In this document: positions 9,283 to 42,334 of the stretch, piece after piece | Layout of the letters: each line of letters opens with the position of its first letter | Numbering within the stretch: the stretch's first letter is position 1 | DNA from: Lonsdalea britannica | GTDB lineage: Bacteria; Pseudomonadota; Gammaproteobacteria; Enterobacterales; Enterobacteriaceae | Reading direction: 5' to 3' | Assembly: GCF_002111595.1 (NCBI RefSeq) | Contig: NZ_LUTN01000004.1 | Coordinates: forward strand, 186,001 to 250,000 | DNA length: 64,000 nt | Translations under genes and position numbers: made by a program | The notes under the pieces: model-generated | Database searches by the model: none | The model's input: only the letters and a program-made list of their open reading frames with translations | Told to the model about the DNA's origin: nothing

Positions 9283-9963
9283 TTAGCGGATCCGATAGCC
9301 GACGCTGCGCACCGTTTCTATCGTCAGGGTACTGCCCTCCAACGCGCTGAGTTTCTGACGAATATTGCTGATGTGAACGTCGACGCTGCGATCATACGCT
9401 TCGCGGCGGCGCCCCAGACATTTCTCCGACAGCTCATCTTTTGTCACCACACGGTCTGGCGAACGCATCAGCAGCTCCAGAAGATTGAACTCGGAGGCCG
9501 TCAGATCAAACGAAACGCCGCGCCATTCGCTGTCGCGGGTGGAGGTGTTCAACGTCAGTTCGCCGTAGGAGACCGAACCGGTATCGCTGATTTTTTCCGG
9601 TTTATCTTCATAACGCCGCAGGACGGCACGCAGTCTTGCGACCAATTCCCGCGGGTAACAGGGTTTGGGGACATAATCATCTGCGCCCATTTCCAGTCCG
9701 ATAACGCGATCAATGTTGTCGCCTTTCGCCGTCAGCATGATGATTGGCAACTGCTGGCTACGACGAACCTGACGCAGCACGTCGATCCCGCTCATGTCCG
9801 GCAGCATGATGTCCAGAATCATGGCGGTGTACTGATTGGACATCGCGCCGTCAACGCCCTCTTTACCGGTCAGCACCTGCTCGGCGTTAAACCCTTCAGC
9901 CGTGAGGTACTCACACAGCATACTGCCCAGTTCGGCATCATCATCTACCAGTAAAATTTTCAT
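9283..9963 (-). CDS. OmpR-family response regulator, CpxR-like
   Basis: A 226-residue cytoplasmic DNA-binding regulator. The receiver domain has the acidic cluster DDD (residues 7-9), phosphoacceptor D51 (MILDIMLPD) and conserved K100 (DDYVPKPC). A winged-helix output domain follows (DLTASEFNLLELL, VDVHISNIRQKL, VRSVGYRIR). It is the first gene of the pair with the kinase and is divergent from macA across about 185 bp, which makes macAB a likely target by inference. It resembles CpxR and RstA, and the exact orthologue was not settled. Confidence 0.92.
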   Translation of the reverse strand: MKILLVDDDAELGSMLCEYLTAEGFNAEQVLTGKEGVDGAMSNQYTAMILDIMLPDMSGIDVLRQVRRSQQLPIIMLTAKGDNIDRVIGLEMGADDYVPKPCYPRELVARLRAVLRRYEDKPEKISDTGSVSYGELTLNTSTRDSEWRGVSFDLTASEFNLLELLMRSPDRVVTKDELSEKCLGRRREAYDRSVDVHISNIRQKLSALEGSTLTIETVRSVGYRIR

Positions 9964-10147
9964 CTTATGTTCCCGTATGTTCGTATGAAACCTATTTTCA
10001 GGTGTGCCAGTATCTTACGCAGCTGTATTTACAGATTACTTACTTTTCATTTAGACAAATATGACGTGGGGCTTTCGATAAATAGAGTAAATTGGTGACT
10101 TTACTATGCTTTATGTCTTCGGCCTTACTAAGGACACTGAAGTTTTG

Positions 10148-11353
10148 ATGAAATTCCGTTTACGACCCGCCCGCTTAATTTTAATTATACTGCTCGCTAT
10201 CCTTCTTGCCCTGCTCTCACTGTTTTTGCTACGTCCAGAAAGCAAAGTTAACTATATCACTACCCCTGTCGCCATTCGGGATCTGGAAAAAACCGTGTTG
10301 GCCGACGGCACAATTGAAGCGCAAAAGCTGGTTAGCGTCGGTGCTCAGGCATCAGGACAAATCAAAGCATTGCCGATTTCATTAGGCGATAAAGTCCAAA
10401 AAGGACAGCTACTGGCCGAAATCGACGACCTGACCCAGCAGAACGAGTTCAAGGACAGTCAGGCGGCGCTGAAAAACGTGCAGGCCCAGCGGACCGCTAA
10501 ACTGGCGGCGCTAAGAAATAATCAGCTGAGCTGGCAGCGCCAGGAAATGCTGATGCGAAAAGGCGTCGGCGCGCAGGCAGACTATGACAGCGCCCGTGCG
10601 ACGCTTGATGCCACTCAGGCCGAAATCACCGCATTGGACGCCCAAATCATTCAGGCGCAGATCGCCGTCAATACCGCGCAGGTCAACTTGGCCTACACCA
10701 AAATCACGTCGCCGATGGACGGCACCGTCGTCGCCATCCCGGTCGAAGCTGGGCAGACGGTCAACGCCGCGCAAAGTACGCCGACCATCGCCAAAGTCGC
10801 CAACCTGAAGACCATGACCATCCAAGCGCAGATCTCCGAAGCGGACGTAATTAAGGTCAAACCAGGCATGTCGGTGTGGTTCACGATCCTCGGCGATCCG
10901 GATAAGCGCTATCAGGCCACGCTGCGCGCTATCGAACCGGCGCCGGAATCGCTGAGTTCCGATACCTCAACCTCAAGCAGCAGCAGTTCCAGCAGCAGTA
11001 GTAGCAGCTCGTCGTCTTCCAGCACGGCGGTCTACTACAATGGCCTGTTCGATGTCGACAACCCCGAAGAAACCCTGCGCATCTCCATGACGGCACAGGT
11101 TTACATCCTGCTGGATACCGTCAAGAACGCGCTGGTTGTGCCGATGACGGCGCTGCATAACGAGGCAGGAAAAACGCAGGTGCAGGTCGTGGACGACAAA
11201 GGGGATATCCATGCCCGGCCGGTTACCACCGGCATCAGCGATAATGTCTTCGTCCAGCTCACTTCCGGCGTCATCGCCGGCGAAAAGGTCATCGTCAGCC
11301 AACAAGCCGGCACGACCGGCGGTCGGTCGGGCAGGCCGCCGATGGGGTTCTAA
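10148..11353 (+). CDS. macA: Macrolide/peptide efflux periplasmic adaptor MacA, with polyserine insert
   Basis: MacA bridges the inner-membrane ATPase MacB and outer-membrane TolC in a tripartite efflux pump. The product has an N-terminal membrane anchor (about residues 8-30), a barrel-sandwich/lipoyl half (SVGAQASGQIKALPISLGDKV), a coiled-coil hairpin, the second lipoyl half (TKITSPMDGTVVAIPVEAGQTV) and a beta-barrel. An unbroken run of 17 serines, written with mixed codons, lies at 10973-11023. ATG 10148 is preferred to 10106 because it opens directly onto the basic-hydrophobic anchor MKFRLRPARL. macB follows after 3 bp. Confidence 0.92.
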   Translation: MKFRLRPARLILIILLAILLALLSLFLLRPESKVNYITTPVAIRDLEKTVLADGTIEAQKLVSVGAQASGQIKALPISLGDKVQKGQLLAEIDDLTQQNEFKDSQAALKNVQAQRTAKLAALRNNQLSWQRQEMLMRKGVGAQADYDSARATLDATQAEITALDAQIIQAQIAVNTAQVNLAYTKITSPMDGTVVAIPVEAGQTVNAAQSTPTIAKVANLKTMTIQAQISEADVIKVKPGMSVWFTILGDPDKRYQATLRAIEPAPESLSSDTSTSSSSSSSSSSSSSSSSSTAVYYNGLFDVDNPEETLRISMTAQVYILLDTVKNALVVPMTALHNEAGKTQVQVVDDKGDIHARPVTTGISDNVFVQLTSGVIAGEKVIVSQQAGTTGGRSGRPPMGF

Positions 11354-11356
11354 ACC

Positions 11357-13329
11357 ATGACAACGCCTTTATTACAGCTCAGCCACGTTTTTCGCCGTTT
11401 TGCTAACGGCGAAAAGACGGTCGACGTCCTGAAAGACATCAATCTCACGATCCAATCAGGTGAAATGGTCGCTATCGTCGGGGCCTCCGGGTCGGGAAAG
11501 TCTACCCTGATGAACATTCTTGGCTGTCTGGACAAGCCCAGTCAGGGCGACTATCTGGTGGCAGGAACCTCCACGCTGACGTTGGATAACGACAGTCTGG
11601 CCGCGCTGCGGCGAGAACACTTCGGCTTCATTTTCCAGCGTTATCATCTGCTGAGCGACCTGACGGTACAGGACAACGTGGAGATCCCAGCCGTCTATGC
11701 TGGTAAAGCGCGTAATGAACGCCAGCAACGCTCGCTCGCGCTGCTGACGCGTCTGGGGCTGGAAGAGCGTCTGAACTACTCGCCTAACCAGCTTTCCGGC
11801 GGTCAGCAGCAACGCGTCAGTATCGCCCGCGCCTGATGAACGGCGGGAACGTCATTCTGGCCGACGAGCCGACCGGCGCGCTGGATAGCACCAGCGGCAA
11901 CGAAGTACTGACGATTCTGAAAGAGCTGCACCGTCAGGGGCAGACGATTATCATCGTCACACACGATATGCAGGTGGCGCAGCAGGCAGAACGCATTATT
12001 GAAATTCATGACGGTGAAATCATCGGCGACCGTCAATGCTCTCCCTCAAACGCTTCCGCCGTCCCCATTCCTGAACAGGCAACAGTCGCCGCCTACACCC
12101 CCTCGCCAGCCAGCCCTTCGTTCTCCCAGTGGTACGGACGCTTTACCGATGCGTTCAAAATGGCGCTGCGCGCGATGAGCGCCCAACGAATGCGTACCTT
12201 CCTGACGATGTTGGGCATCATCATCGGCATCGCCTCCGTCGTATCGGTCGTCGCCCTGGGGAAAGGCTCCCAGCAGCAGGTTTTGGACAGCATCAATGAG
12301 ATGGGCACCAGCACGCTGGAGATTTTTCCCGGCAAAGACTTTGGCGATATGCGGTCCGGTGCGATCCAAACGCTGAGGGCCAGCGACATTAAACCGCTGT
12401 CGGCACAGCCCTACGTCCACAGCATTACCCCCTTGCTTTCCTCCAGCGTGACGCTGCGTTACCGCAATGTTTCGCTGACCACCACCGTGAACGGCGTCGG
12501 CGAACAGTTTTTTACCGTTCGCGGCTACACCCTGTCGGAGGGCGTATCATTTCCCTCCCACAGTATCGACACGCTGGCACAAGAAGTGGTGATCGATCAG
12601 AACACGCGGGATAAGCTGTTTTCGCATGGCGAAGATCCCCTGGGGCAGGTCATTCTGCTCGGCACGCTGCCGTGCCGAATTATTGGCGTGGCCACACGTC
12701 AGCAAAACGGGTTCGGGAGCGATGAAAGCCTGAATGTCTGGGTTCCTTACACCACCGCCATGTGGCGACTGGTGGGACAGTCCTATCTGCGAAGCATCAC
12801 CGTCCGCGTCAAAGACAATGTCGATCTCAGCGTCGCCGAGCAAGGCATTACCCAGGAGCTGACGCGCCACCATGGCAATAAAGACTTCTTCGTAATGAAC
12901 ACCGACAGTATTCGGCAGGCTATTCAGAAAACCGGCGCCACGCTGACGCTGCTGGTATCGCTGATTGCGGTGATTTCACTGATTGTCGGCGGTATTGGCG
13001 TGATGAATATCATGTTGGTGTCGGTGACCGAGCGCACCCGGGAGATTGGCGTGCGCATGGCGGTAGGCGCGCGCACCAGCGATATTATGCAGCAATTCCT
13101 GATCGAAGCGGTGCTGGTGTGCCTGTGCGGCGGGCTGTTGGGCGTCGTGGTTTCGCTGCTTTGCGGCGGACTATTCGGCCTGCTGGTCAGCAGCTTTTCC
13201 CTCGTGTATTCGCCCGCGTCTATCGTCGCCGCGTTCGTCTGTTCCAGCCTGATCGGCGTGATTTTCGGCTTTTTCCCCGCCCGACGCGCCGCCAACATGC
13301 AGCCTATTTACGCGCTGGAAAGGGAATAG
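11357..13329 (+). pseudogene. macB: MacB efflux ABC transporter, reading frame broken near 11833
   Basis: MacB is an inner-membrane ABC transporter that works with MacA and TolC. The first frame (11357-11836) has Walker [10 protein letters not shown] and signature [14 protein letters not shown], then stops. The remainder, in another frame from 11836, resumes at once with [18 protein letters not shown] (Walker B), the large periplasmic domain and the FtsX-like membrane segments ending near YALERE. Restoring one C near 11833 (GCC CTG ATG) rejoins the family sequence into about 657 residues, close to the usual 648. The break creates a TGATG stop/restart overlap. It is either a true mutation or a sequencing error. 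Confidence 0.9.
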
Positions 13330-16628: not shown

Positions 16629-17655
<1,027 letters not shown>

Positions 17656-22159: not shown

Positions 22160-23991
22160 ATGGCTCGAACTACCATCGCAATATTGGGCATGGGCCCAAG
22201 AGGATTAAGTATTCTTGAACGTGTAATTACGCTGTACCACCACTCACCCCATCCAGAAGGAATGGAAATCCTGCTCGTTGATCCCAATGAAATTGGCGCG
22301 GGCGCTCACAGTCGTCAACAACCCGACCACATGCTGGTGAATACCGTGGCCAGTCAAATCACGTTGTTCGGTGACGAGTCGGTCAAAAATACCGGCCCTG
22401 TTCGCCGCGGGCTTAATTTTTTCGAGTGGGCCAAAGCGCACGGCTACCGAAACAAGAATGGCACTGAAATTCAGGAAAACGATTATCTCCCCCGTCGCCT
22501 GCTGGGCGAATATCTTGTCTGGGGATACCATGAAATCACCCGCGATCTGCCACACGATCTGGTGATCCGCCATCGACCTCACCGCGCCACCAATCTGGCT
22601 CTACAGGACGACGGGAAAGCTCATATTTCGCTGCAAGGCGGAACAATGATTTCGGCCGATTTTGTCTTTATAACCACCGGACACGGTCGCAACATGCTGT
22701 CCATTGATGACCACGTGCTGCTGCAATTTGTGGCCGCCAATCAAACGAACAATCCCCATCTGGAGTATTTCAGCACGCCTTATCCAACCTCGATGCTGGA
22801 TGACATCTCGTCGCAGTCGCGTGTGCTGATACAAGGTATGGGGCTGACCGCTTACGATGTGCTGTCGCAATTGACCTATGGCCGAGGGGGCGTTTTTACC
22901 GAAGAGGAAGGCCGGTTGCGCTACACGCCCAGCGGACGTGAACCGGCGATCGCCCTGTTTTCCCGTCAGGCACTGCCTTTCAGTAGCCGCGGCCGTAACC
23001 AGAAGGGCGTCGGAGGACAGTACCACCCCGCCTTCATTACGCTTGCCGCCTTAGATATTCTCCGGCAACAGAATCGCTCGGCTACGGGATCGTCAAAGCC
23101 GGATTTTGAAAAACAGGTTCTGCCTCTGCTGGTGAAAGAGATGTGCTACGTCTATCGCAGCACACTCGAACAGCACTGGCCGAATGCGGCGACCTATCAG
23201 GAAGATCCCGAAGATCGTCAGCGTATCCTTACGCTGTTTTATCCACATCAGGGCAGTCATTCACTTCGCTGGAGGACTACACCGCATTCTTTATGGCGCA
23301 TCTGACCGACGATCTCCACGCCGCAGAGCAAGGCAATGTCGAGGGCGCGGTTAAGGCGGCCACCGATGTGATTCGAGACGTCCGCGATATCCTGCGCGGT
23401 GCGATCGATTTTGGCGGCTTGACCGGCGAGTCCCATCAGCGCCTGCTAGAACACTATTCCCCTATTTTTAACCGCATCGCGGTCGGCCCGCCGCTTGCAC
23501 GTAATCGGGAATTGCTGGCGCTGATGGGGGCCGGTGTCGTCAAGCTTGCTGGGGGCCCCGCGTCAACATTGCTACTCAACGCCCGCTCAGGCTGTTTCGA
23601 GATGAACAGCACGTTTGCCGAGGCGAACAGCCGGACGGAATATGATGTGCTAATCAAAGCCAAGATCGACAGTTTCTCGGTGCTGCATGACGATTCGCTA
23701 TTTATCCGCAATCTCATCGCACACGGTGTCATCCGCCCCTTCATCAACCAGGGCTATCATCCCGGTGGGATTGATATCGATCGCAACCAACATCCGATAT
23801 CCAGGCAGGGAGAAACGCAGACCTCACTTTGGGCGCTGGGGATTCTGGCTGAAGGCCCGAATTTCTATACCTATGTGCTGCCGCGCCCGCAGGTTAACTC
23901 ACGAGCGCTGCAAGATGCCGGGCGTTGCGTCATCGACATGTATCAGCAGTTGGAGCAGCTTTACGCTATCAATCATTCGAATGTCTTCTAG
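22160..23991 (+). pseudogene. FAD/NAD(P)-binding protein, frame broken near 23251
   Basis: The N-terminus (TTIAILGMGPRGLSILERV) is a Rossmann dinucleotide fold of the FAD/NAD(P)-binding (NAD_binding_9-like) type, and a second GMGLTAYDVLSQL nucleotide motif lies near residue 227. The first frame loses the family-like sequence after FYPHQG near 23251; the other frame continues with QSFTSLEDYTAFFMAHLTDD to 23991. One missing G (CAGGG(G)CAG) would give a single protein of about 610 residues. Enzyme activity is unknown; neighbours (exporter or importer, tautomerase) hint at small-molecule metabolism. Confidence 0.82.
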
Positions 23992-29958: not shown

Positions 29959-30240
29959 CTATCGTTTACTTTTAGAATGTTCTGCTCTTTGCCTGCGTAA
30001 TTCTTTGGGATCGGCAGTTATCGGACGATAGATTTCAACGCGATCGCCCTCCTGTAGTGCTTCATCCAGCTTGGCGACGCGACTAAAAATACCCACTTTA
30101 TTGCTAGTGAGGTCTATCTCCGGACGCAAGGTTAGTAACCCCGACGCTTTAATCGCTTGCTCTACAGTACTGCCCTCTTCGAGCTTTAGCGCACGGAGAA
30201 ACTGACGCTCCGGTAACGCATAAACCACTGCCACTCGCAT
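29959..30240 (-). CDS. rnfH: RnfH family ubiquitin-like protein (RatB)
   Basis: A 93-residue protein of the RnfH/RatB family with a beta-grasp ubiquitin-like fold; the family's function is unclear and it was once described as a toxin-antitoxin partner of RatA. The start [13 protein letters not shown] (30240) lies two bases from the ratA stop, so the pair is co-transcribed and probably coupled. The conserved [19 protein letters not shown] block is near the end. Confidence 0.93.
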
Positions 30241-30241
30241 C

Positions 30242-30676
30242 TCAGGCACTGTAGACCTCTTTGGCTCGTTGAGTGAAAGCCTGAACCATGTTGTTCGCAA
30301 GCTCCTTAAAAACTTTTCCAAAAGCCAATTCGATCAGCGCATTTTTGAATTCGAAATCCAAGTCGAGCTCAACTTTACAGGCTTCTTCGCTTAGCGGAGT
30401 AAACCGCCAATCACCCTTTAATTCCCGGAATGGGCCATCAACCAGCCGCATTGAGATAGACTGGTTATCGGTCAGCGTATTCCGCGTCGTAAAGGTTTTG
30501 CTAATACCGGCTTTGGAAACATCAACCGCGGCGGTCATTTCCTCCGAAGAGGTCGATAAGACTCGGCTTCCTGTACAGCCCGGTAAGAAGGCAGGGTAAG
30601 ACGGCACATCATTGACGAGCTTATACATTTGCTCAGCGCTGTAAGGGACTAACGCGGAGCGATTGATCTTGGGCAT
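30242..30676 (-). CDS. ratA: START-domain protein RatA
   Basis: RatA (144 residues from [18 protein letters not shown]) is a SRPBCC/START-domain protein, proposed to interfere with 70S ribosome assembly and related to Coq10-type lipid carriers. The conserved [11 protein letters not shown] segment is present. It is the first gene of ratA-rnfH and is divergent from smpB, as in other enterobacteria. Confidence 0.94.
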
Positions 30677-30830
30677 ACCATTTTCCAAAAGTAACAAAAT
30701 GCGCAAAATAATAGCATTTTAGGTCATCAGATAAAAACGCTGGGAAAGTTGCCCGAAGGCAGAACACAATGTCACTCTACACTTTGGCGGGGATTTCATT
30801 CCCTTAGACATCCAGTATAATGACGGCACT

Positions 30831-31313
30831 ATGAAAAAGAAAAAAGCGTACAAACCCGGTTCCGCTACCATTGCGCAAAACAAGCGTGCTCGCCATGAGT
30901 ACTTCATCGAAGAAGAATTTGAGGCTGGCCTTGAACTGCAAGGCTGGGAAGTCAAATCTCTGCGAGCGGGCAAAGCCAATATCAGCGACAGCTATGTGAC
31001 CTTAAGAGACGGCGAAGCCTTTCTCTTTGGCGCCACCATTACACCGCTCAACGTTGCATCTTCACACGTCGTATGCGACCCCACTCGCACGCGCAAACTG
31101 TTACTCAACAAACGCGAGATAGAATCGCTCATCGGCCGAGTCAGCCGTGAGGGTTATACCGTTGTCGCCTTGTCGATGTATTGGAAAAATGCGTGGAGTA
31201 AAGTCAAAATTGGCGTCGCGAAAGGCAAACGAGATCACGACAAGCGCGATGATATCAAAGAACGCGAGTGGAAATTAGACAAAGCCCGTATCATGAAGAA
31301 CGCAAACCGCTAA
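30831..31313 (+). CDS. smpB: SsrA-binding protein SmpB
   Basis: SmpB binds tmRNA and delivers it to stalled ribosomes for trans-translation. The 160-residue product has the OB-fold core ([20 protein letters not shown]) and the basic C-terminal tail ([20 protein letters not shown]) that enters the mRNA channel. ssrA lies 49 bp downstream, the standard arrangement. Confidence 0.97.
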
Positions 31314-31362
31314 GCCGGTGGCTTTAGTCCGGTAAGTTCTGGTATACTGGCGAAAGTTTCTT

Positions 31363-31725
31363 GGGGCTGATTCTGGATTCGACGGGATTTGCAAAGCCAA
31401 GGTGCATGCCGAGGGGCGGTTGGCCTCGTAAAAAGCCGCAAAAAAATAGTCGCAAACGACGAAAACTACGCTGTAGCAGCTTAATACCCTGCGTATAGCC
31501 CTCTCTCCCTAGCCTCCGCTCTTAGGACGGGGATCAAGAGAGGTCAAACCTAAAAGAGATCGCGTGGATGCCTTGCCTGGGGTTGAAGCGCTAAATCTAA
31601 TCAGGCTAGTTTGTTAGTAGCGTGTCTGTCCGCAGCTAACCGGCGAATGTAAAGATTAGACTAAGCATGTAGTACCGACGGTAGAGTAATTCCGGACGGG
31701 GGTTCAAATCCCCCCAGCTCCACCA
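31363..31725 (+). ncRNA. ssrA: Transfer-messenger RNA (tmRNA)
   Basis: The 363-nt gene equals the E. coli length. It starts GGGGCTGATTCTGGATTCGA and ends with the T-arm and CCACCA, together forming the tRNA-like domain. The tag frame at 31452-31484 encodes ANDENYAVAA then TAA, one residue different from the E. coli tag ANDENYALAA. A TATACT -10 element lies at 31343-31348. Its 3' end is the attachment site of the genomic island that follows. Confidence 0.98.
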
Positions 31726-31730
31726 AATTT
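31702..31730 (+). other. attL core: 3' end of ssrA used for island integration
   Basis: The tmRNA 3' end (TTCAAATCCCCCCAGC then CTCCACCA) has a diverged copy 7.9 kb away at 39584-39607, and a P4-type integrase gene starts 180 bp downstream. E. coli CP4-57 and many islands use the same target. The tmRNA is left intact by the insertion. Confidence 0.8.
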
Positions 31731-31760
31731 TGTTCTATAGAACGCCAAAGAAGTCCACTA

Positions 31761-31793
31761 AGCCCGCATGGCACAAGCCCTGCGGGCTTTTTT
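31761..31793 (+). terminator. Intrinsic terminator after ssrA
   Basis: Stem AGCCCGCA paired with TGCGGGCT (8 bp, 12-base loop) followed by a run of T. A decayed copy of the same sequence exists at about 39648-39680 at the far end of the island. Confidence 0.9.
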
Positions 31794-31836
31794 ACGTCTA
31801 TTGGGCGCTGTGGCGATCTTGTGGCTTCCACAACTT

Positions 31837-31904
31837 TTAGGTACCTTCTTAGGTACCCGAAAGGCAGGTACCCATCTAGCGGGTACCTAAATGATGGAGG
31901 TACC
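31837..31904. repeat. Integrase arm-type repeats, left end
   Basis: TTAGGTACC occurs at 31837-31845 and 31849-31857, starts 12 bp apart. Three more GGTACC words follow at 31867, 31882 and 31899, the last just before the integrase ATG. Matching 12-bp-spaced pairs occur at the right end, so these are probably arm-type binding sites for the integrase; the ones over the promoter could also let it control its own gene. Confidence 0.65.
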
Positions 31905-31905
31905 T

Positions 31906-33147
31906 ATGGCACGGTTAACAAAACCCCTCACCGATACGGAGATCAAAGCCGCCAAACCACAGGAGGCGGATTACACACTGCATGACGGCGACGGTCTGCA
32001 ACTGCTCATCAAAAGCAGCGGCAGGAAAGTCTGGCAGATGCGCTACTACCGGCCTTTAACCAAAAAGCGCGCAAAACTGACTTTTGGGCCTTATCCCGAA
32101 GTTACTCTGGCCGACGCCCGGCAACGCCGTACAGCGGCCCGCGCCCTGCTGGTAAAAGATATTGACCCTTATGAACACCAGCTTTCATTGCGCAAGCAAG
32201 CGCTGGAAACCCAATCCAACACCTTTAAGGTCGTTGCCGAACGCTGGCTACAGCTAAAAAGGAACAGCGTCACCGCCGACTATGCCTCCGATATCCGGCG
32301 CTCCCTCGAAAAGGATATCTTCCCCGCCATCGGCGATATCAGCATCACGGATATCAAAGCGCGCACGCTGGTGCAGGCTATTCAGCCGGTACAGGCCAGA
32401 GGCGCGCTGGAAACGGTAAGACGATTATGCCAGCGGATTAACGAGGTGATGGTCTATGCCATGAACGTTGGTCTGATCGATGCGGCTCCCAGCGTCAATA
32501 TCAGCAAGGCGTTCGAGAAACCGCAGAAAAAGCACATGCCCAGCATCCGCCCGGATCAACTACCGCAACTGATGCAAACAATGCGGCTGGCAAATATCGA
32601 GTTACCGACCCGCTGTCTGTTTATGTGGCAGCTTCTCACCCTCACCCGCCCTGTCGAAGCCGCTGAGACGCGCTGGCAAGAGATCGATCTGGACGCTAAA
32701 GAATGGCGCATTCCGGCCGAACGCATGAAAATGAAGCGGGTACATATCGTTCCGCTGTCAGAACAGGCGCTGGCGATTCTGGCGCTAATGAAACCCTTAA
32801 GCAGCCACCGGGAATATGTTTTCCCCAGCCGCATTAAACCGTTACAGCCAATGAATAGCCAGACGGTCAACGCCGCGCTAAAACGCGCCGGATTAGGCGG
32901 CATTCTGGTATCACACGGCATGCGATCCATTGCCAGTACCACGCTCAATGAGCAAGGCTTTCCGCCTGATGTCATCGAAGCCGCCCTCGCCCACGTAGAT
33001 AAAAATGAAGTACGCCGGGCCTATAATCGCAGCGATTATCTGGAACAACGTCGCCCCATGATGCAATGGTGGGCCGACTTTGTGAAAGCGGCGGACAACG
33101 GCAGTGTGCTGGAAGGCGGGATCCGGGGACTTAAGGCAATTGGGTGA
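31906..33147 (+). CDS. Tyrosine integrase, P4/CP4-57 (IntA) type
   Basis: A 413-residue site-specific recombinase that inserts and removes the island at ssrA. The N-terminal DUF4102 domain (LTDTEIKAAKPQEADYTLHD, YRPLTKKRAKLTFGPYPEVT) is typical of P4-type integrases, followed by a core-binding domain and the catalytic domain with Arg in TRPVEAAETRW, His-Arg in SHGMRSIAST, His in ALAHVDKNEV and the tyrosine in RRAYNRSDYL. ATG 31906 was preferred to 31891 because MARLTKPLTDTEI is the family start. It appears intact, so the island could still be mobile. Confidence 0.95.
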   Translation: MARLTKPLTDTEIKAAKPQEADYTLHDGDGLQLLIKSSGRKVWQMRYYRPLTKKRAKLTFGPYPEVTLADARQRRTAARALLVKDIDPYEHQLSLRKQALETQSNTFKVVAERWLQLKRNSVTADYASDIRRSLEKDIFPAIGDISITDIKARTLVQAIQPVQARGALETVRRLCQRINEVMVYAMNVGLIDAAPSVNISKAFEKPQKKHMPSIRPDQLPQLMQTMRLANIELPTRCLFMWQLLTLTRPVEAAETRWQEIDLDAKEWRIPAERMKMKRVHIVPLSEQALAILALMKPLSSHREYVFPSRIKPLQPMNSQTVNAALKRAGLGGILVSHGMRSIASTTLNEQGFPPDVIEAALAHVDKNEVRRAYNRSDYLEQRRPMMQWWADFVKAADNGSVLEGGIRGLKAIG

Positions 33148-33675: not shown

Positions 33676-33718
33676 GCTCCTTACTGGATTTCTATGGAAT
33701 AGAAATCCAGTAAGGAGC
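33676..33718. repeat. Perfect 20-bp inverted repeat with 3-base loop
   Basis: The 20-base arm at 33676-33695 is exactly complementary to 33699-33718, separated only by GGA. No T run follows on either strand, so a simple intrinsic terminator is not a full explanation. It lies about 50 bp after the Ner-like gene. Confidence 0.9.
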
Positions 33719-33742: not shown

Positions 33743-34042
33743 TTGATATACGGATTTTGGCGCAGTAAATTATCAGTGCGATACCGCTGCTGCAAGCAGC
33801 ACTCCCATGTTGCCACGACCTTGAAGGCAACGCGCAGGACTAACCTGTGTGGTCGATTCCCAACCCGCCCCGCTACCAGTTTGCGGGTGATCGCTGCGGC
33901 GATAGTAGCTACCTTATCCCAACGCCTTAGGGCTGCATCCTTTTTGCTCTTAGTGAAGCAACTGCTTTTTGTATACGCACTGATGCGTACAACAACCTTT
34001 ATTGCTGGCGCAGCCGTCTGCGGTCTTTTGCTGCCTCAGTAA
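33743..34042 (+). CDS. Possible small prophage-type protein (Ash/Icd-like), uncertain
   Basis: A 99-codon frame with segments such as GRFPTRPATSLRVIAAA that recall the poorly conserved Ash/Icd-like proteins annotated in P4-type elements. It overlaps strong inverted repeats and its ribosome site is weak, so it may equally be a chance frame through a structured region. No domain is recognised. Confidence 0.3.
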   Translation: MIYGFWRSKLSVRYRCCKQHSHVATTLKATRRTNLCGRFPTRPATSLRVIAAAIVATLSQRLRAASFLLLVKQLLFVYALMRTTTFIAGAAVCGLLLPQ

Positions 34043-34122: not shown

Positions 34123-34304
34123 CCTCGCGCCATAGCGCTTTGCGGCGCGACCTGTCATCTGACGCACATTTTCTGCGTCAATTCTCATCAACCCACTTAT
34201 CAGAGGAGGACTGAACCGATACCTGAGGCGGGCTTTTAGCCTGAGGGGATTACCCTGCTGATGCAGGCGGCTGCACCGAGTGCATAACCGATATCCCCGC
34301 CATA

Positions 34305-34403
34305 CCTCAACCGCTGCCGCTCCGGCGCGCAGGTATTGTTCAGTGCGGCACGGTAAATCCGTGTCGCAAATCGCCGTGCGCCGGAGAACAGAGGTTATTG
34401 AGG
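34305..34403. repeat. Nested inverted repeats just before the second integrase-like gene
   Basis: Three stems are nested: CCTCAA/TTGAGG (34305-34310 with 34398-34403), CTCCGGCGC/GCGCCGGAG (34320-34328 with 34378-34386) and TGCGGCACGG/CCGTGTCGCA (34344-34353 with 34359-34368, one G-T pair). The outer arm ends 15 bp before the ATG, so folding could affect translation of the gene or present a DNA hairpin. Confidence 0.75.
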
Positions 34404-34418
34404 ATGGGGGGATAACAT

Positions 34419-35285
34419 ATGTCACGATTAAGTCTGGAAATGCAGACGCTGGCCCGACAGGCCGGCGGCAGCCATAAGACGGTACATGACCGACTAAAAA
34501 TTGCAGAGCGGCTTGCCAGTCACCTGCTGTCTTTGAATATTCAGATCCGCACGGTACAGCATCTGAAAGCAAAACATATCGAATGCTATATCGCCGAACG
34601 GTTAGAGCAGGGAATTACTCTGCGCACGCTGCATAATGAAATGGCGGCAGTGCGGGTAATGCTGCGCACCGCCGGGCGGGACAAGCTGGCGGATGCGGAA
34701 CGGCTGAGCAATAAGACGTTAGGCCTGAGTGGCGCCAGCCGGGACGGTACGCGGCAAGCGATTACGCCGGAGCGCTATCAGGCGGCGCTGAAAGCCCTGC
34801 AACAGAAAGACGCTGGGCTGGCGCTGACGCTGCAACTGGCTCGAATGATGGGCCTACGATCACAGGAAGCGGTGCAGTGTTTGCAGTCGCTCCAGACATG
34901 GGCCAAAGCGCTGGAGCGAGGTGACGAGCAATTAACGGTGGTATTCGGCACCAAAGGTGGACGGCCCCGACAAACGCGGGTTCTGGATCGGGAAGCGTTA
35001 ACGCAGGCAGTGTATCAGGCGCTGACGATTGCTGCTGCCCGCAACGGTCGGCTGATTGATAAACCGGATCTGAAAAGCGCCATTAATCGCTGGCGCTCGC
35101 AAACCGCTATGGCCGGACTAAAGGGGCAATATTCCCCGCACAGCCTGCGTTACGCATGGGCGCAAGATGCGATGCGCTATTATCGGCAGCAGGGATTCAG
35201 TAAACGGGAAGCCAGCGCGCTGGTGTCAATGGATTTAGGGCACGGGGATGGGCGTGGGCGGTATGTGGAGCGAGTTTATGGCTGA
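34419..35285 (+). CDS. Integrase domain-containing protein (PF12834/PF12835 type)
   Basis: A 288-residue lambda-integrase-like protein. The N-terminal half (residues 1-95) resembles a SAM-like core-binding domain (SRLSLEMQTLARQAGGSHKTVHDR), and the rest a catalytic fold with ARMMGLRSQEAVQ, SPHSLRYAWAQD (His-x2-Arg) and MDLGHGDGRGRYVERVYG (His and a terminal Tyr). Thus the R...HxxR...H...Y set may be complete, although the family is usually called only DNA-binding. It lies after a strongly structured 400-bp region and has a G-rich ribosome site. Confidence 0.85.
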   Translation: MSRLSLEMQTLARQAGGSHKTVHDRLKIAERLASHLLSLNIQIRTVQHLKAKHIECYIAERLEQGITLRTLHNEMAAVRVMLRTAGRDKLADAERLSNKTLGLSGASRDGTRQAITPERYQAALKALQQKDAGLALTLQLARMMGLRSQEAVQCLQSLQTWAKALERGDEQLTVVFGTKGGRPRQTRVLDREALTQAVYQALTIAAARNGRLIDKPDLKSAINRWRSQTAMAGLKGQYSPHSLRYAWAQDAMRYYRQQGFSKREASALVSMDLGHGDGRGRYVERVYG

Positions 35286-35340
35286 TGGCCTAGATCAGGA
35301 TTGGTACGAATGTCTTGGTAGGGAAAATATCTAAAGGTAA

Positions 35341-35499
35341 ACGGTTCAGTTTGCCAGAATACTTACACGGGCAAAAAAACATTCCCAATCGGGGAAATGT
35401 CATTACCACGTTTATCTGCTGTTCAACAAAGATGCCTACTACTATTTGCGAACGATATGGAAAATTAATCTTACCTACGAACAGCCGGCACAGCTTTAA
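35341..35499 (+). pseudogene. Fragment of a YfjJ/YagK (inovirus Gp2) family gene
   Basis: A 52-codon frame between stop codons, with no start, encodes RAKKHSQSGKCHYHVYLLFN and then KDAYYYL, the core HYHV-x3-NKDAY pattern of the YagK/YfjJ C-terminal family, also called inovirus Gp2. A full gene is about four times longer; the rest is missing. E. coli CP4-57, inserted at the same tmRNA site, carries yfjJ, which fits a common ancestry of the islands. Confidence 0.7.
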
Positions 35500-35618
35500 G
35501 CTAGATTCTAGATTTCATTTCCTCACTCAGTCACGTGCCTACTACTGCTGGGTAAGACCATGTCATTTATTAGAATAAAGAGAAGGATTGATGCACACAA
35601 GCTTATACGTTAAACTGA

Positions 35619-35777
35619 CCAAGCCCTTTAGCGTTCAGACGGTTACGTCTAGTCGGGCGTTAAGCCAGACTCTAACTTATTGTGGGGTTTCGTGGTTGCG
35701 GTAGTCGTTCTTCGCATCCACTCCCCTAGTCGTGGATGCGAAGAACGACTACCGCATCCTTTAGTAAAGGGTTGTGG
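35619..35777 (+). ncRNA. Retron msr-msd non-coding RNA (template for msDNA)
   Basis: The layout follows known retrons. Repeat a1 (AAGCCCTTTA, ending 35630) pairs with a2 (TAAAGGGTT, 35765-35773). The G at 35631 directly after a1, in the context TTAGCG, is the likely branch guanosine, as in Ec86. The msr then folds two small stems: AGACG-GTTA-CGTCT (35637-35650) and AGTC/GACT plus GGC/GCC (35651-35671). The msd part is a perfect 25-bp hairpin with a 10-base loop (35697-35756). The predicted DNA is about 70-80 nt. The RT gene starts 63 bp after a2. Confidence 0.9.
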
Positions 35778-35819
35778 CAAACTGGAGCGTTCAGTTTGCC
35801 ACGTTTTACTGGCTTTTTT
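35774..35819 (+). terminator. Hairpin with T run between msd and RT gene
   Basis: A perfect 11-bp stem (GTGGCAAACTG with CAGTTTGCCAC, 35774-35802) is followed by T-rich sequence and TTTTTT at 35814-35819. It could partly terminate, giving more ncRNA than mRNA, or protect the 3' end of the ncRNA. Confidence 0.6.
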
Positions 35820-35840
35820 GAATTTGCTTGAGGATTCTGC

Positions 35841-36806
35841 ATGCGCCTTAACCTTTATGCGAAACTGATTGAAATTCAACCACGTAGTCGTAGGCAGATA
35901 GATAGATTTCTTGCCAATGCCCCCAATAAATACAAAGTATACACTATACCCAAACGAGACATTGGGGAAAGAATTATCGCCCAACCATCACGAGAGCTTA
36001 AGAAATTCCAACATTACATTATAAGTATTCTAGAATCTCTATTTGAAATACATACAAGTGCTATTGCTTATAGAAAGGGCACAGGAATTAAGCAGAATGC
36101 CAATATGCATTCTGCCAACCCTTATATACTAAAAATGGATTTCTCTAACTTCTTTAACAGCATCACGCCTGACCTCTTTTTTTTAGCATGTAAATGGAAT
36201 AACTATTCCCTCAGTGCCGCCGAAGAGAGACTACTTACCAAAGCTCTTTTCTGGAATAAATCTAAAACGCAGGATGGTAGGCTCGCATTAAGCATAGGAG
36301 CCCCTAGCTCACCCCTTGTCTCCAATATTATTATGTATTTATTTGATGAGGAGTTTAATACGCTATGCAAAGACAATGGAATAGTATATTCACGATATGC
36401 CGACGACCTGACATTTTCTACCAGCCATAAAAATTTATTATTTTCCCTACCAGACAAAGTGAGAGCTTTTCTTTTCAAACATTATAATAATAGGATCACC
36501 TTGAATGAGCGAAAAACAGTATTCACTTCCAAAGCTCATAATCGCCATATTACAGGGGTGACACTAACTAACGAAGGGACTTTATCTGTCGGAAGGGAGC
36601 GTAAAAGGCTCATATCCTCTTTAGTTCATAAATATAAATTGGGTTTACTTGAACCTGATATGGTTTACTACCTTCAAGGATTATTATCTTTTGCCTCATA
36701 CATTGAACCAAACTTCAGATTCAGACTGGCAAGAAAGTACTCTGCTGAAACCATTACTAAACTTATTAAACTAAGGAAAGCAGATGGAAAATTTAAAAAA
36801 CAGTAA
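35841..36806 (+). CDS. Retron reverse transcriptase (type I-A, Ec78/Ec83-like)
   Basis: A 321-residue reverse transcriptase that would prime from the branch guanosine of the upstream RNA and copy the msd into msDNA. Visible motifs: the first catalytic aspartate in LKMDFSNFFNSI (D100), the retron-specific NAxxH (NANMH, 86-90), SIGAPSSPLVSN (151-162), the catalytic YADD (186-189), and the VTG-type motif here reading ITG (237-239) before thumb-region LIPSLVHK-like sequence (LISSLVHKYK). No other domain is fused. The gene is AT-rich against the host. It overlaps the ATPase gene by 23 bp. Confidence 0.95.
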   Translation: MRLNLYAKLIEIQPRSRRQIDRFLANAPNKYKVYTIPKRDIGERIIAQPSRELKKFQHYIISILESLFEIHTSAIAYRKGTGIKQNANMHSANPYILKMDFSNFFNSITPDLFFLACKWNNYSLSAAEERLLTKALFWNKSKTQDGRLALSIGAPSSPLVSNIIMYLFDEEFNTLCKDNGIVYSRYADDLTFSTSHKNLLFSLPDKVRAFLFKHYNNRITLNERKTVFTSKAHNRHITGVTLTNEGTLSVGRERKRLISSLVHKYKLGLLEPDMVYYLQGLLSFASYIEPNFRFRLARKYSAETITKLIKLRKADGKFKKQ

Positions 36807-38376
36807 ATTCAATAAGATCGAGGCAAAAGCTCGCAAGGGTGACATAGATGCAGCTTTTCAGCTATACAATTTTTATCTAAATGGTAAATATCTAGAGAAA
36901 GACTCAGAGAAAGCCCAAGAATACTTGGATTTAGTACTATCCCAATTTCGAGATCAAAAAATTAGAATTGCATCATTATCTTTGCTTAATTTTAGAATAG
37001 CCGAAAGATTATCGATAAGATTTAATAATGAACACACGCAAGTGCTTATTGGTAATAATGGTGCGGGGAAAACTACCGTACTAGACGCCATTTCACATAG
37101 CTTAAGCTGGCTTATCAGACGCATTGTCAATAGCGGAGGTAAAGGTAGGGATATTGATAAATCAGATATCACTATGGGGAATAATGATGGTTACAGCTCA
37201 ATTATCACCAAGCTGACACTTTACAAAGATTATTCTCCTACTTTAGAGCTATGCGAAGTCGAAGAAGGCAGTATTGTGAAAAAGAAGAGTTATTACTCTG
37301 ACTTCACACAACTGGGTAATTTATACAAGTTATCCTGTGATTCTGATGATAAATTTGAACTTCCATTATTTGCATACTACGGTGTTATGCGCTCTATGGA
37401 TATTAATTCTAAAGATATGGTCGAATTTGACGAGACCACTGCAAATGAAATCCAAAATCGTTTCGATGGCTATAGTGGTTCAATAGCTGGTAAAGCTGAC
37501 TTCAAAGCTTTTTTCCGTTGGTATAAGCGACTTGATGATCTGGTCAAACACGAGAATCAGAATGTTCCACAGACAGATTTGAAATTTATTTCAATGCTGG
37601 AAGAACTTGCTGATTCAGATCCTCAAGCAAAGAAAGTGCTTAATAAGTTACTTTCAAAAATGAAACCACAATCGGAACCAGAAGAAATAAGCTATGCAGC
37701 AAAAACTCAAAGAATTATAAATAAAACAATTCCTTTTTTTATGGACGGATTTAGTAATCTAAAAGTTGAGCTAAAACCTACCCTTCACCTTTCAATTGAA
37801 AAAGAAGGAATAAAAACCAATGTATTGCAGCTATCACAGGGTGAAAAATCATTACTTGCGCTAATACTTGATATCACTCGACGGCTAGCAGCGCTAAACC
37901 CTGACTCTGAAAATCCATTATTGTGTTCTGGCATAGTTTTAATCGATGAGATTGATTTACATCTTCATCCAGAGTGGCAACGAAATATCATAAAAAAACT
38001 GGAAACAGCGTTCCCAAACTGTCAGTTCATAGTTACCACTCACTCACCTCAAATTATCAGTGAAATAAAACATGATCAGATTTTTATTTTAGGGAAAGAT
38101 GAAAGTGGAAATTTTAACTGTTTTTCTCCAGATCAATCTTACGGGCTGACATCAAATGATGTCCTCAATGAAATTATGAAAACTGGAGATAAAACTTTAG
38201 TTCGTTCCCCAGAGGTCCAGAATGGTATTGACGAAATTTTCTCTCTCATATCTAAAGGCGACTTAGAAAGTGCTAGCAGGAAGATTGCTGAAATGGAAAA
38301 GGAATTACATGGTGAAATCCCAGAACTGGCGAATGCCAAATTTGATATTGAGCTTCATGGCTGGGATAAAGAATGA
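36784..38376 (+). CDS. ptuA: Retron-associated PtuA-type ATPase
   Basis: A 530-residue ABC/OLD-type ATPase. Residues 14-50 look like one Sel1/TPR-type helical repeat. The nucleotide site is complete: Walker A GNNGAGKTT (90-98), signature LSQGEKS (350-356), Walker B GIVLIDEIDLHLHP (383-396) and the switch histidine TTHSPQ (418-423). In type I-A retrons and the Septu system this protein partners the HNH nuclease PtuB to restrict phage growth. It overlaps both neighbours, so all three proteins are probably made from one transcript. Confidence 0.9.
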   Translation: MENLKNSKFNKIEAKARKGDIDAAFQLYNFYLNGKYLEKDSEKAQEYLDLVLSQFRDQKIRIASLSLLNFRIAERLSIRFNNEHTQVLIGNNGAGKTTVLDAISHSLSWLIRRIVNSGGKGRDIDKSDITMGNNDGYSSIITKLTLYKDYSPTLELCEVEEGSIVKKKSYYSDFTQLGNLYKLSCDSDDKFELPLFAYYGVMRSMDINSKDMVEFDETTANEIQNRFDGYSGSIAGKADFKAFFRWYKRLDDLVKHENQNVPQTDLKFISMLEELADSDPQAKKVLNKLLSKMKPQSEPEEISYAAKTQRIINKTIPFFMDGFSNLKVELKPTLHLSIEKEGIKTNVLQLSQGEKSLLALILDITRRLAALNPDSENPLLCSGIVLIDEIDLHLHPEWQRNIIKKLETAFPNCQFIVTTHSPQIISEIKHDQIFILGKDESGNFNCFSPDQSYGLTSNDVLNEIMKTGDKTLVRSPEVQNGIDEIFSLISKGDLESASRKIAEMEKELHGEIPELANAKFDIELHGWDKE

Positions 38377-39104
38377 GAGCGATTGAAAAAAGTCATGAGC
38401 CACGCTCTCTTGCACAATATCGAGTGAAAAACCGGGAATATGATGGGCCTAATTTTACCCCAATTAAAGTGGAAATTAGGACCTACCTACTAGCAGAACA
38501 GGGCTATCTATGTGCATATTGCATGAAAAGAATATCAACTGACTCAATGAAGATTGAGCATTGGGCATGCCAGCACGATCATCCAGAACTTGAATTATCA
38601 TACAAAAATATGCTTGGATGTTGTATGGGTAATGAAGGCAAGCCAAAAAATCTACAGACTTGCGATACTCGCAAAGGTAGTGACTGTATAAAATTCAACC
38701 CATCCGAACCGAATCATCATGTGAATGATCTTATAAAATTTCATGGGGATGGTAAAATTTATTCAACTGATAGCGAATTTAATATTCAATTAGTCAAAGT
38801 GCTTAATCTAAACTCAGATAGACTTGTCCGTAACCGTACCCTTCTTATCGACTCCATACGTAAGGAGCTCAACGCCAAAAAAGGTAAAAGAACAAAATCA
38901 GAAATCAAAAAGCTCATTGCCGTTTATCTAGAAGTTGACACTGATGGGAAATTAAAGGAATACTATGCGTTGCCATTAATTACCTTTCAGCAAAAATTTA
39001 GAAAATTAATTATTCAACAAATTATACATAACAGCGACTCCCTAGAATTTTACTATGTTTTTTCATACAGCCTTGAGCCCCAACACTTTATACTAACATG
39101 TTAA
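38373..39104 (+). CDS. ptuB: Retron-associated PtuB-type HNH nuclease
   Basis: A 243-residue HNH-family nuclease. The zinc/HNH core reads CAYC (C47, C50), IEHW with H63, SYKNMLGCC (N79) and TCDTRKG (C97), the pattern of PtuB-like endonucleases. In Ec78/Septu systems, PtuAB cleave RNA or DNA when phage attack disturbs the msDNA; which nucleic acid is attacked here cannot be read from sequence. The ATGA overlap with ptuA implies coupled translation. It is the last gene of the AT-rich cassette. Confidence 0.9.
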   Translation: MRAIEKSHEPRSLAQYRVKNREYDGPNFTPIKVEIRTYLLAEQGYLCAYCMKRISTDSMKIEHWACQHDHPELELSYKNMLGCCMGNEGKPKNLQTCDTRKGSDCIKFNPSEPNHHVNDLIKFHGDGKIYSTDSEFNIQLVKVLNLNSDRLVRNRTLLIDSIRKELNAKKGKRTKSEIKKLIAVYLEVDTDGKLKEYYALPLITFQQKFRKLIIQQIIHNSDSLEFYYVFSYSLEPQHFILTC

Positions 39105-39298
39105 TAGGTAACATATAGTGGAAAGTTTTTCATTTTCGTAAATATGCCGTCTACTATAATATTTACTTCTATGTAATGATCATTACTGTTAATACAGTTT
39201 ATTCGAAGATTAATTACCTTATCCAACAGCAAGAAGGAATCACATTTCCACAATAGCCCAGCGCAGGATATTTTTTCGAACGAGGTCAGCTGTAACAC
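39101..39298 (-). CDS. Orphan small ORF, possibly a gene remnant
   Basis: A 65-codon frame with a GTG start, antisense and convergent to ptuB. The same frame stays open upstream for about 32 more codons, to a TGA at about 39397, and beyond that TGA an in-frame ATG gives eight more codons. The peptide (for example KMKNFPLYVTY at its end) resembles nothing I recognise. It is AT-rich like the retron and could be the tail of a broken gene or chance. Confidence 0.25.
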   Translation of the reverse strand: MLQLTSFEKISCAGLLWKCDSFLLLDKVINLRINCINSNDHYIEVNIIVDGIFTKMKNFPLYVTY

Positions 39299-39508
39299 GT
39301 CAATCCTAGAAGCTAATTTCCTTAGCTTGGCATGTACTTCATTCAGGTTATCAGATGGAAGAGTAATTCCTTTAACCAGCGATAACTGTCAACAAAGTTG
39401 ATAGTTATCGACCATATGAAGAAAGAAATTATTTTTCTAACTCGCCTGTAGTTGTCTCATGAAACTAAACACTTGCTAATTTGCGCTCATCAAAATGATG
39501 AAAAAATC

Positions 39509-39583: not shown

Positions 39584-39607
39584 TTCAACTCCCCCCAGCC
39601 CAATTTA
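39584..39607 (+). other. attR-like core, diverged copy of the tmRNA 3' end
   Basis: TTCAACTCCCCCCAGCCCAA then TTTA matches the tmRNA end TTCAAATCCCCCCAGC...CCAAATTT with small gaps. It marks the right border of the retron island. Confidence 0.65.
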
Positions 39608-39639
39608 GACATCGGTTATTACCAGATAAGGCCGATGAA

Positions 39640-39745
39640 GTACGAAAAGCCAGCACGGCGCAAGTCCTCCGGGCTTTTTTGCGTCTGATGGACATAGTGC
39701 AATCCTGTAACTTTCACAACGTCAGGTACCTTCTTAGGTCACACC
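39640..39745. mobile_element. Remnant left end of a second, tandem island
   Basis: This sequence follows the attR-like core and is collinear with 31748-31855, which follows the tmRNA: a decayed copy of the ssrA terminator (GCCAGCACGGCGCAAGTCCT then CCGGGCTTTTTTGCGTCT) and an arm pair TCAGGTACC (39722-39730) and TTAGGTCAC (39734-39742), again 12 bp apart. No integrase gene follows, so the second element is mostly deleted. Confidence 0.6.
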
Positions 39746-41234: not shown

Positions 41235-42334
41235 ATGACTAAGATTCGAGTTGGCGTGGTGTTCGGTGGTAAATCGGCAGAACACGAAGTGTCGCTGCAA
41301 TCCGCCAAAAACATCGTGGAAGCCATTGATAAGGATAAATTCGACGTCGTTCTGCTGGGTATCGACAAGCAGGGCGAATGGCATATTAATGATGCCTCCA
41401 ACTATCTATTGAATGCAGACAATCCGGCGAAGATAGCTCTTAACCGTTCAAGTCAGCATGTCGCCTTGATCCCTGGTCAGGCCAACCACCAGTTAATCGA
41501 TACGAAAAGTGCGGACGCCCTGTCCCAGATCGATGTGATCTTCCCGATCGTTCACGGCACATTAGGTGAAGATGGTTCTCTGCAAGGACTGCTCCGAATG
41601 GCCAATATCCCGTTCGTCGGCAGCAGCGTTCTGGGCTCGGCGGTCAGCATGGATAAAGATGTGACCAAGCGACTGCTGCGAGATGCCGGACTGCTGGTCG
41701 CCCCCTTTGTGACGCTCACCCGCGCAAATCGTCGCCGTTTCGACTTCACCACCATCACGGCTAAACTCGGCCTGCCGCTGTTTATCAAACCGGCCAATCA
41801 GGCTCTTCCGTCGGCGTTAGCAAAGTTAAAGACGAAGCGTCATTCCGACGCGCGGTCGATCTGGCGTTCAGCTATGACCATAAGGTGCTGGTGGAGTCCG
41901 CGATCGTTGGCCGTGAAATTGAATGCGCCGTCCTGGGCAACGATTTTCCGCAGGCCAGCGTGTGCGGCGAAATCGTCCTGCACGACGAGTTCTACTCTTA
42001 CGATACCAAGTACATCGATGAAGACGGCGCAGGCGTCGCTATCCCGGCCCCGCTGCCGGAAGTGACCGACGAACGTATTCGGGCCGTGGCGCTGCGCGCT
42101 TTCCAGACGCTGGAGTGTCAGGGAATGGCCCGGGTCGATGTATTCCTGACGCAGGATGACGAGATCATCATCAACGAAGTCAACACGCTGCCCGGTTTCA
42201 CCAATATCAGCATGTATCCCAAGCTGTGGCAGGCGAGCGGTATTGGCTATACCGCACTGATAACTCAGCTCATCGAACTGGCGCTGGAGCGCTATTCACA
42301 AGACAACGCACTACAAAGCTCAGTCCGCGACTGA
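41235..42334 (+). pseudogene. ddlA: D-alanine-D-alanine ligase (DdlA type), frame broken near 41802
   Basis: Ddl joins two D-alanines for peptidoglycan precursors in the cytoplasm. Frame one matches DdlA (RVGVVFGGKSAEHEVSLQSA, PIVHGTLGEDGSLQG) to KPANQ, then diverges. Another frame carries the rest: [20 protein letters not shown]-grasp motifs and [19 protein letters not shown], ending at 42334. One missing G in CAGG(G)CTCT near 41802 restores about 366 residues, the usual length. If the break is real, a second ligase (DdlB in the division cluster) would be needed for growth. Confidence 0.92.

Follow-up and report, generated by a model that had tools for sequence, protein, structure and literature searches.

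What does the AT-rich block at positions 35622-39104 of this stretch of the Lonsdalea britannica genome encode, are its genes whole, and how does it come to lie in an island at ssrA, the gene for transfer-messenger RNA (tmRNA)? We analysed the full 64,000 nucleotides (nt) of the stretch (contig NZ_LUTN01000004.1, positions 186,001 to 250,000), here called the window, and established the parts of a cassette, their gene order, a paired RNA and a mobile context (Table 1). We hold it to be very probable that the cassette is a type I-A retron, a defence unit of the tripartite toxin-antitoxin kind, and that it is the cargo of a small island with an integrase, inserted in ssrA.

The cassette reads, on the plus strand, non-coding RNA (ncRNA), reverse transcriptase (RT), PtuA ATPase and PtuB HNH protein, the canonical order for type I-A retrons. 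In the list of open reading frames (ORFs) the RT and PtuA genes overlap by 23 nt and the PtuA and PtuB genes by 4 nt, and all three have a GC content of ~36%, against 54-55% in the flanks. The original prediction, a type I-A retron with an msr-msd RNA held by a1/a2 arms, an RT with characteristic motifs, and overlapping, AT-rich effector genes in a GC-rich host, was borne out on each of these points: the RNA matches Rfam RF00170 and has a 9-bp stem, the RT carries YADD, AHNRH and ITG, and RNA, RT, effectors and gene order all agree. Retron types are used here as PADLOC labels them. A promoter scan of 35280-39300 was uninformative, with 7 sites against 12.9 expected.

The RNA is well defined. 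Arms a1 and a2 enclose the msr match and the msd hairpin, the template of the msDNA stem, and G at 35631 is a candidate branch nucleotide. An a1/a2 stem of 8-11 bp was present in all 16 loci given to our script, with both arms varying in sequence between loci; the script picks the longest run of pairs, which makes these lengths upper estimates, one locus (L074) is a near copy of another (L073), and the set leaves out L053, whose upstream part is lost at a contig end, together with RT loci lacking PtuA. An alternative placement of the a2 arm within a GTGGCAAACTG hairpin was abandoned, as the 16 loci show pairing of the CCCTTTA/TAAAGGG type. Folding of 35600-35830 gave z = -9.05, and none of 200 shuffles folded equally well. 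We aligned the RNA with those of the closest relatives, namely G001, a genome from another genus of the family, and L107 and L108, two IMG/VR contigs with phage genes. In these four sequences 98.7% of the cells of a 59-pair structure were paired (5 of 64 predicted pairs, in alignment columns 64-79, had been removed beforehand). Two-sided changes occurred in 9 of the 59 pairs, against a shuffled mean of 2.5 and with 0 of 500 shuffles as high, in a structure derived from the same four rows; slid versions of it had 0 or 1 such pairs. Seven pairs with two-sided changes lie in the msd hairpin. The terminator-like hairpin that follows a2 is also conserved in the four-sequence alignment.

The RT scores best with the PADLOC RT_I-A model and exceeds the cut-off of the NCBIfam model retron_St85_RT (318 bits against 235); its top chain in the PDB is 9n69 (expect value, E, 2.5e-91), from an entry without a retron name. 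The original prediction had named an RT grouping outside the retron clades as the outcome that would speak against a retron. As a partial check, we built a tree of 23 rows, the nearest retron-like RTs with no non-retron outgroup, in which the window's RT pairs with that of G001 (100/100) inside a 19-row clade (98/98). Thirteen rows of this clade bear the label PtuAB, although for L056 only PtuA matched, and 6 have neither a PtuA nor a PtuB match in the stretch fetched.

The effectors are recognizable by model and by motif. PtuA has a Walker A motif (GNNGAGKT), a signature motif (LSQGEKS) and a Walker B motif (IVLIDEID). PtuB, which carries CAYC, IEHW, NMLGCC and TCDTRKG, passes the cut-off of NCBIfam TIGR02646, 'retron system putative HNH endonuclease' (58.5 bits against 52.15). 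A Pfam search gave no match for PtuB, and its PDB matches were limited to three chains: a TIGR02646/PtuB protein (E 1.5e-5), a second sequence of that name, and 8ee7, named PtuB (E 1e-3). No chain named Ec83 was found for PtuB in the PDB at E 0.001, which suggests that, at the sequence level, PtuB is far diverged from its Ec83 counterpart.

Several observations weigh against the assignment. Both effectors fall below the NCBIfam Ec78 equivalog cut-offs (PtuA 467 against 500, PtuB 118 against 150), and therefore the same function as the Ec78 proteins is not given. The RT sequence alone leaves type I-A and type II-A unsettled: the tree clade is mixed, the RT_I-A and RT_II-A models each match all 23 RTs of the tree, and among ten relatives scored individually RT_I-A was best in 7 and RT_II-A in 3, two of the 7 (L054 and L059) having no PtuAB match. 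The backbone of the tree is not resolved within the clade, and the type I-A call is made because the effectors decide. Finally, PtuB as read is frame-shifted near its end: roughly 10 residues of the native sequence are missing, and a foreign stretch of 44 residues begins at residue 200.

The shift was recognized by comparison with relatives. PtuB of the window tracks its counterparts in G001, L107, L108 and a fourth relative, L109, to about residue 199 and then diverges; residues 1-199 are in the native frame and 200-243 out of it. The counterparts are 213 (209 from the Met aligned with the window's), 209, 210 and 215 residues (aa) long, respectively, so that the three closest relatives have a PtuB of 209-213 aa with its native end. 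In the DNA alignment to G001 the window lacks one base near 38966-38970, and beyond that point similarity continues to the G001 stop. Alignment in the shifted register gives 19 matching bases out of 33, whereas eight other registers give 9-15, and shuffles scored as the best of four registers reached 19 matches in 94 of 20000 trials. Translation of the window in the other frame gives the ending AINYLSAKI plus stop, where L108 ends VENYLSSKL plus stop. Thus the proposal that the cassette's proteins are intact holds for RT and PtuA, which are full length with their motifs, and is not supported for PtuB, where, in the sequence as read, a tail of 44 residues from another frame takes the place of the last ~10 native residues. 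PtuB as deposited may be inactive or mis-sequenced. An AlphaFold2 model built from 4 sequences had a mean pLDDT (predicted local distance difference test) of 36, unusable for judging the role of the C-terminus. The shifted end is a warning that calls of a 'complete cassette' need a frame check against relatives.

We consider an error of sequencing or assembly, in an otherwise whole cassette, a somewhat likelier cause of the shift than a real ptuB mutation. The evidence comes from a frame test against a sister genome, G199, which is a single contig. Of 52 non-overlapping ORFs of at least 120 aa taken from stretches of G199, 41 mapped to the window and 11 had no match; 34 were full in one frame, 1 matched over 95%, 2 were cut by the window ends and 4 were split, hemF and ddl among them. 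Of 67 sister ORFs compared with the 80 kb preceding the window, 29 mapped (20 full, 4 flagged as split, 5 partial). In the reverse direction, with 50 ORFs from the window's genome as queries, 30 mapped to the sister, 24 of them full, 6 partial and none split. By DNA alignment, all eight split genes have lost one base in the window's genome and show no change close by that would compensate for it; a very long one has many further small gaps, and an unnamed one has an extra base near its end. Indel errors in a draft assembly fit these data, because the excess of split genes is one-directional and includes core genes, and the split genes near the cassette may share their cause with the ptuB shift. 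Against an error stand the completeness score of the genome (99.55%) and the fact that real pseudogenes, without reads, are indistinguishable from errors; widespread gene decay may be the cause of the split genes.

Less probable, though to be taken seriously, is a decaying copy, with a real one-base loss in ptuB, a dead or weak effector, and RNA and RT as a leftover antitoxin. Comparison with four relatives shows the frame shift clearly, and the right attachment site of the island is short of 4 nt, as decay would have it; on the other hand, RT and PtuA are open with their motifs kept, and the one-base losses in all eight other split genes examined point to read error.

Table 1. Features of the window, numbered from its first letter, with the evidence for each
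Feature	Position	Strand	Evidence or remark
Retron a1 arm	35622-35630	+	9-bp pairing with a2
msr RNA	35623-35688	+	Rfam RF00170, 67.7 bits against gathering score 52, E 4e-10
msd hairpin, template of msDNA stem	35694-35759	+	arms 35694-35721/35732-35759, 28 nt, 96% complementary
Retron a2 arm	35765-35773	+	9-bp pairing with a1
Terminator-like hairpin between ncRNA and RT gene	35773-35803	+	14 pairs, then TTTT
Retron RT, 321 aa	35841-36806	+	PADLOC RT_I-A 453.1 bits
PtuA ATPase effector, 530 aa	36784-38376	+	PADLOC PtuA1 731.5, ATPase_I-A 569.7 bits
PtuB HNH effector, 243 aa as read	38373-39104	+	PADLOC PtuB1 237.4, HNH_I-A 167.6 bits
ssrA (tmRNA), integration site	31363-31725	+	ARAGORN; Rfam RF00023
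Left attachment core, ssrA 3' end	31703-31718	+	direct repeat of 39584-39599, 94%
Right attachment core	39584-39599	+	4-nt loss just after core relative to empty site
Tyrosine integrase, PRK09692 type	31891-33147	+	NCBIfam NF007246, 855.9 bits; Pfam Phage_integrase, Arm-DNA-bind_3
Second tyrosine integrase within island	34419-35285		PF12834/PF12835; host-like GC, 58%
macB-like gene (below NCBIfam cut-off)	11357-13326		split by single-base loss against G199
hemF	16722-17650		split by single-base loss against G199
Unnamed gene without NCBIfam match	22160-23556		split by single-base loss against G199
D-Ala-D-Ala ligase gene (ddl)	41235-42331		split by single-base loss against G199

The proposed tmRNA island is confirmed by its attachment repeats and by a naturally empty site in the sister genome G198. 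The two attachment cores lie 7881 bases apart, giving an island of 7.9 kb. In G198 both copies of the core align to a single site: window positions 30122-31730 and 39584-39725 meet there, and the alignment continues from 39813 onward. The insert is therefore real and the sister site naturally empty. In the other sister genomes the flanks of the ssrA site are ~123 kb apart (G199), ~4 kb apart (G117) or on two contigs (G200). The island contains the two integrases, a small SfsB-like gene (below cut-off) and the retron.

Several further sequence features lie in or beside the island. A 64-nt direct repeat (77%) with a terminator-like core is found just inside its left end and just outside its right end (31741-31804 and 39628-39691), and the island may thereby supply its own ssrA terminator. 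An exact 16-nt direct repeat, AGGTACCTTCTTAGGT, at 31839-31854 and 39724-39739, may be an arm site of the integrase. Between the two integrases are Rfam matches to the radC RNA (33769-33909) and the EFASI RNA (34211-34342), perhaps from a second, older mobile element; a perfect 20-nt inverted repeat with a 3-nt gap lies at 33676-33718. Elsewhere in the window, an FMN (flavin mononucleotide) riboswitch was found on the minus strand at 687-853.

How widespread is the cassette? Within the genus, an RT match was found in 1 of 5 genomes, the window's own. Across the order, an RT match at E 0.001 was found in 82 of 394 genomes, the window's own among them, the best relative being G001 (73%) and the other matches listed at 53% or below. 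PtuA matched at E 0.001 in 37 of 198 genomes of the family (own included), many of them partially, and only G001 was close (66%); residues 1-199 of PtuB matched in 12 of 392 family genomes (own included), with G001 at 55%, G698 at 44% and the rest at 33% or below. A search of viral contigs with PtuA found at least 57 loci, and among the matches listed L107 (64%), L108 (60%) and L109 (43%) matched over most of the protein. The closest relatives, G001 (locus L052), L107 and L108, share 71-75% of RT and 60-66% of PtuA residues and have closely similar msr and msd. The order RNA, RT, PtuA, PtuB is common to G001, L107, L108 and L109; near its retron, L109 has a second, distant PtuA-like ORF on the opposite strand (9287-10891, 26% over part).

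Searches with DNA gave little: megablast found no match in E. coli genomes, blastn none in phages, and a plasmid search only stretches of up to 83 bases in the ncRNA region, in 8 records. A genome contig search with the RT yielded no relative, and one with a two-row PtuA alignment gave no more than a remote match to part of the protein (32% over 65 residues). A literature search on retrons in soft-rot genera turned up no mention of a retron among the matches listed, and the main text of PMC12548924 contains none of the terms type I-A, PtuA, ATPase, HNH or tRNA.

The retron of G001 also follows ssrA, and between the two lie an integrase gene, different from the window's but of its type, and a gene that looks like a transposase gene (read from its translation). 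The L107 retron has a phage tail-tip gene within a few kb, and that of L108 lies between phage replication gene A and a terminase gene. Thus the same retron branch follows ssrA in two genera and in other loci lies close to phage genes; with such surroundings it is probably mobile cargo. The claim that the cassette is new in its host context holds narrowly: 1 of 5 genus genomes has an RT match, and a relative follows ssrA in another genus. As a kind of system it is known. With this cassette, a diverged retron of type I-A is on record for a genus in which 4 of 5 genomes lack an RT match.

It is conceivable, if doubtful, that the window's retron belongs with those of G001, L107 and L108 to a separate type I-A effector branch, in which an ordinary retron RNA and RT accompany a PtuAB pair with a PtuB barely like those of Ec78 and Ec83 and with a nucleic-acid target of its own.

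That a Septu-like PtuAB merely adjoins an unrelated retron RT is very improbable. The best single PADLOC models for the effectors do bear the Septu names PtuA1 and PtuB1, and PDB chains 8ee4 and 8ee7 are named PtuA and PtuB, so that the effectors are homologous to those of type I Septu. Type I Septu, however, is not known to include an RT or retron RNA with its PtuAB, whereas the window has msr and RT directly upstream, with the RT gene overlapping that of PtuA. Moreover, the genes overlap by the 23 and 4 nt given above, and the I-A models also match the effectors strongly. G001, L107 and L108 have the same set of four parts, as do additional loci whose effectors are less closely related. A type II-A retron can be dismissed almost entirely: RT_II-A is the second-best PADLOC model for the RT (373.4 bits), but RT_I-A scores 80 bits higher, and where type II-A retrons have a non-PtuAB effector next to the RT, the neighbours here are PtuA and PtuB.

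If the type I-A retron of the window behaves as its family does, the RT would copy msd into msDNA, which would stay joined to the msr RNA; the complex of RT and msDNA would keep the PtuA ATPase and the PtuB HNH nuclease inactive; and phage infection would release or activate PtuAB, stopping both cell and phage. In this scheme msDNA synthesis, toxicity, trigger and defence are all predicted from family membership. This kind of anti-phage system is already known and well understood, and solved structures exist for Ec78 and Ec83. The layout of Ec83 (Eco4), RNA-RT-ATPase-HNH, is that of the window. Among PDB structures, the one closest to PtuA of the window is the Ec83 ATPase (E 1e-79), and the Ec83 RT is also near (E 2e-85), but the PtuA match is limited to residues 5-465 of the protein, and PtuB matched no chain of that name. 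Ec78 (Eco7) has the same parts, with an RT at E 3e-83 and a PtuA at E 2e-54, but differs in the equivalog scores given above. According to Azam et al. 2024 (PMC11555353), PtuAB of Eco7 together stop growth and deplete tRNA-Tyr, and their neutralization takes both msr-msd and RT, while PtuAB of Eco4 are toxic without lowering tRNAs. Since PtuA of the window is nearer that of Ec83 than that of Ec78, a target other than tRNA might be ventured for PtuB, as a weak first guess. With Eco7 and Eco4 already differing in target, a third effector branch, if true, would offer a useful comparison with both.

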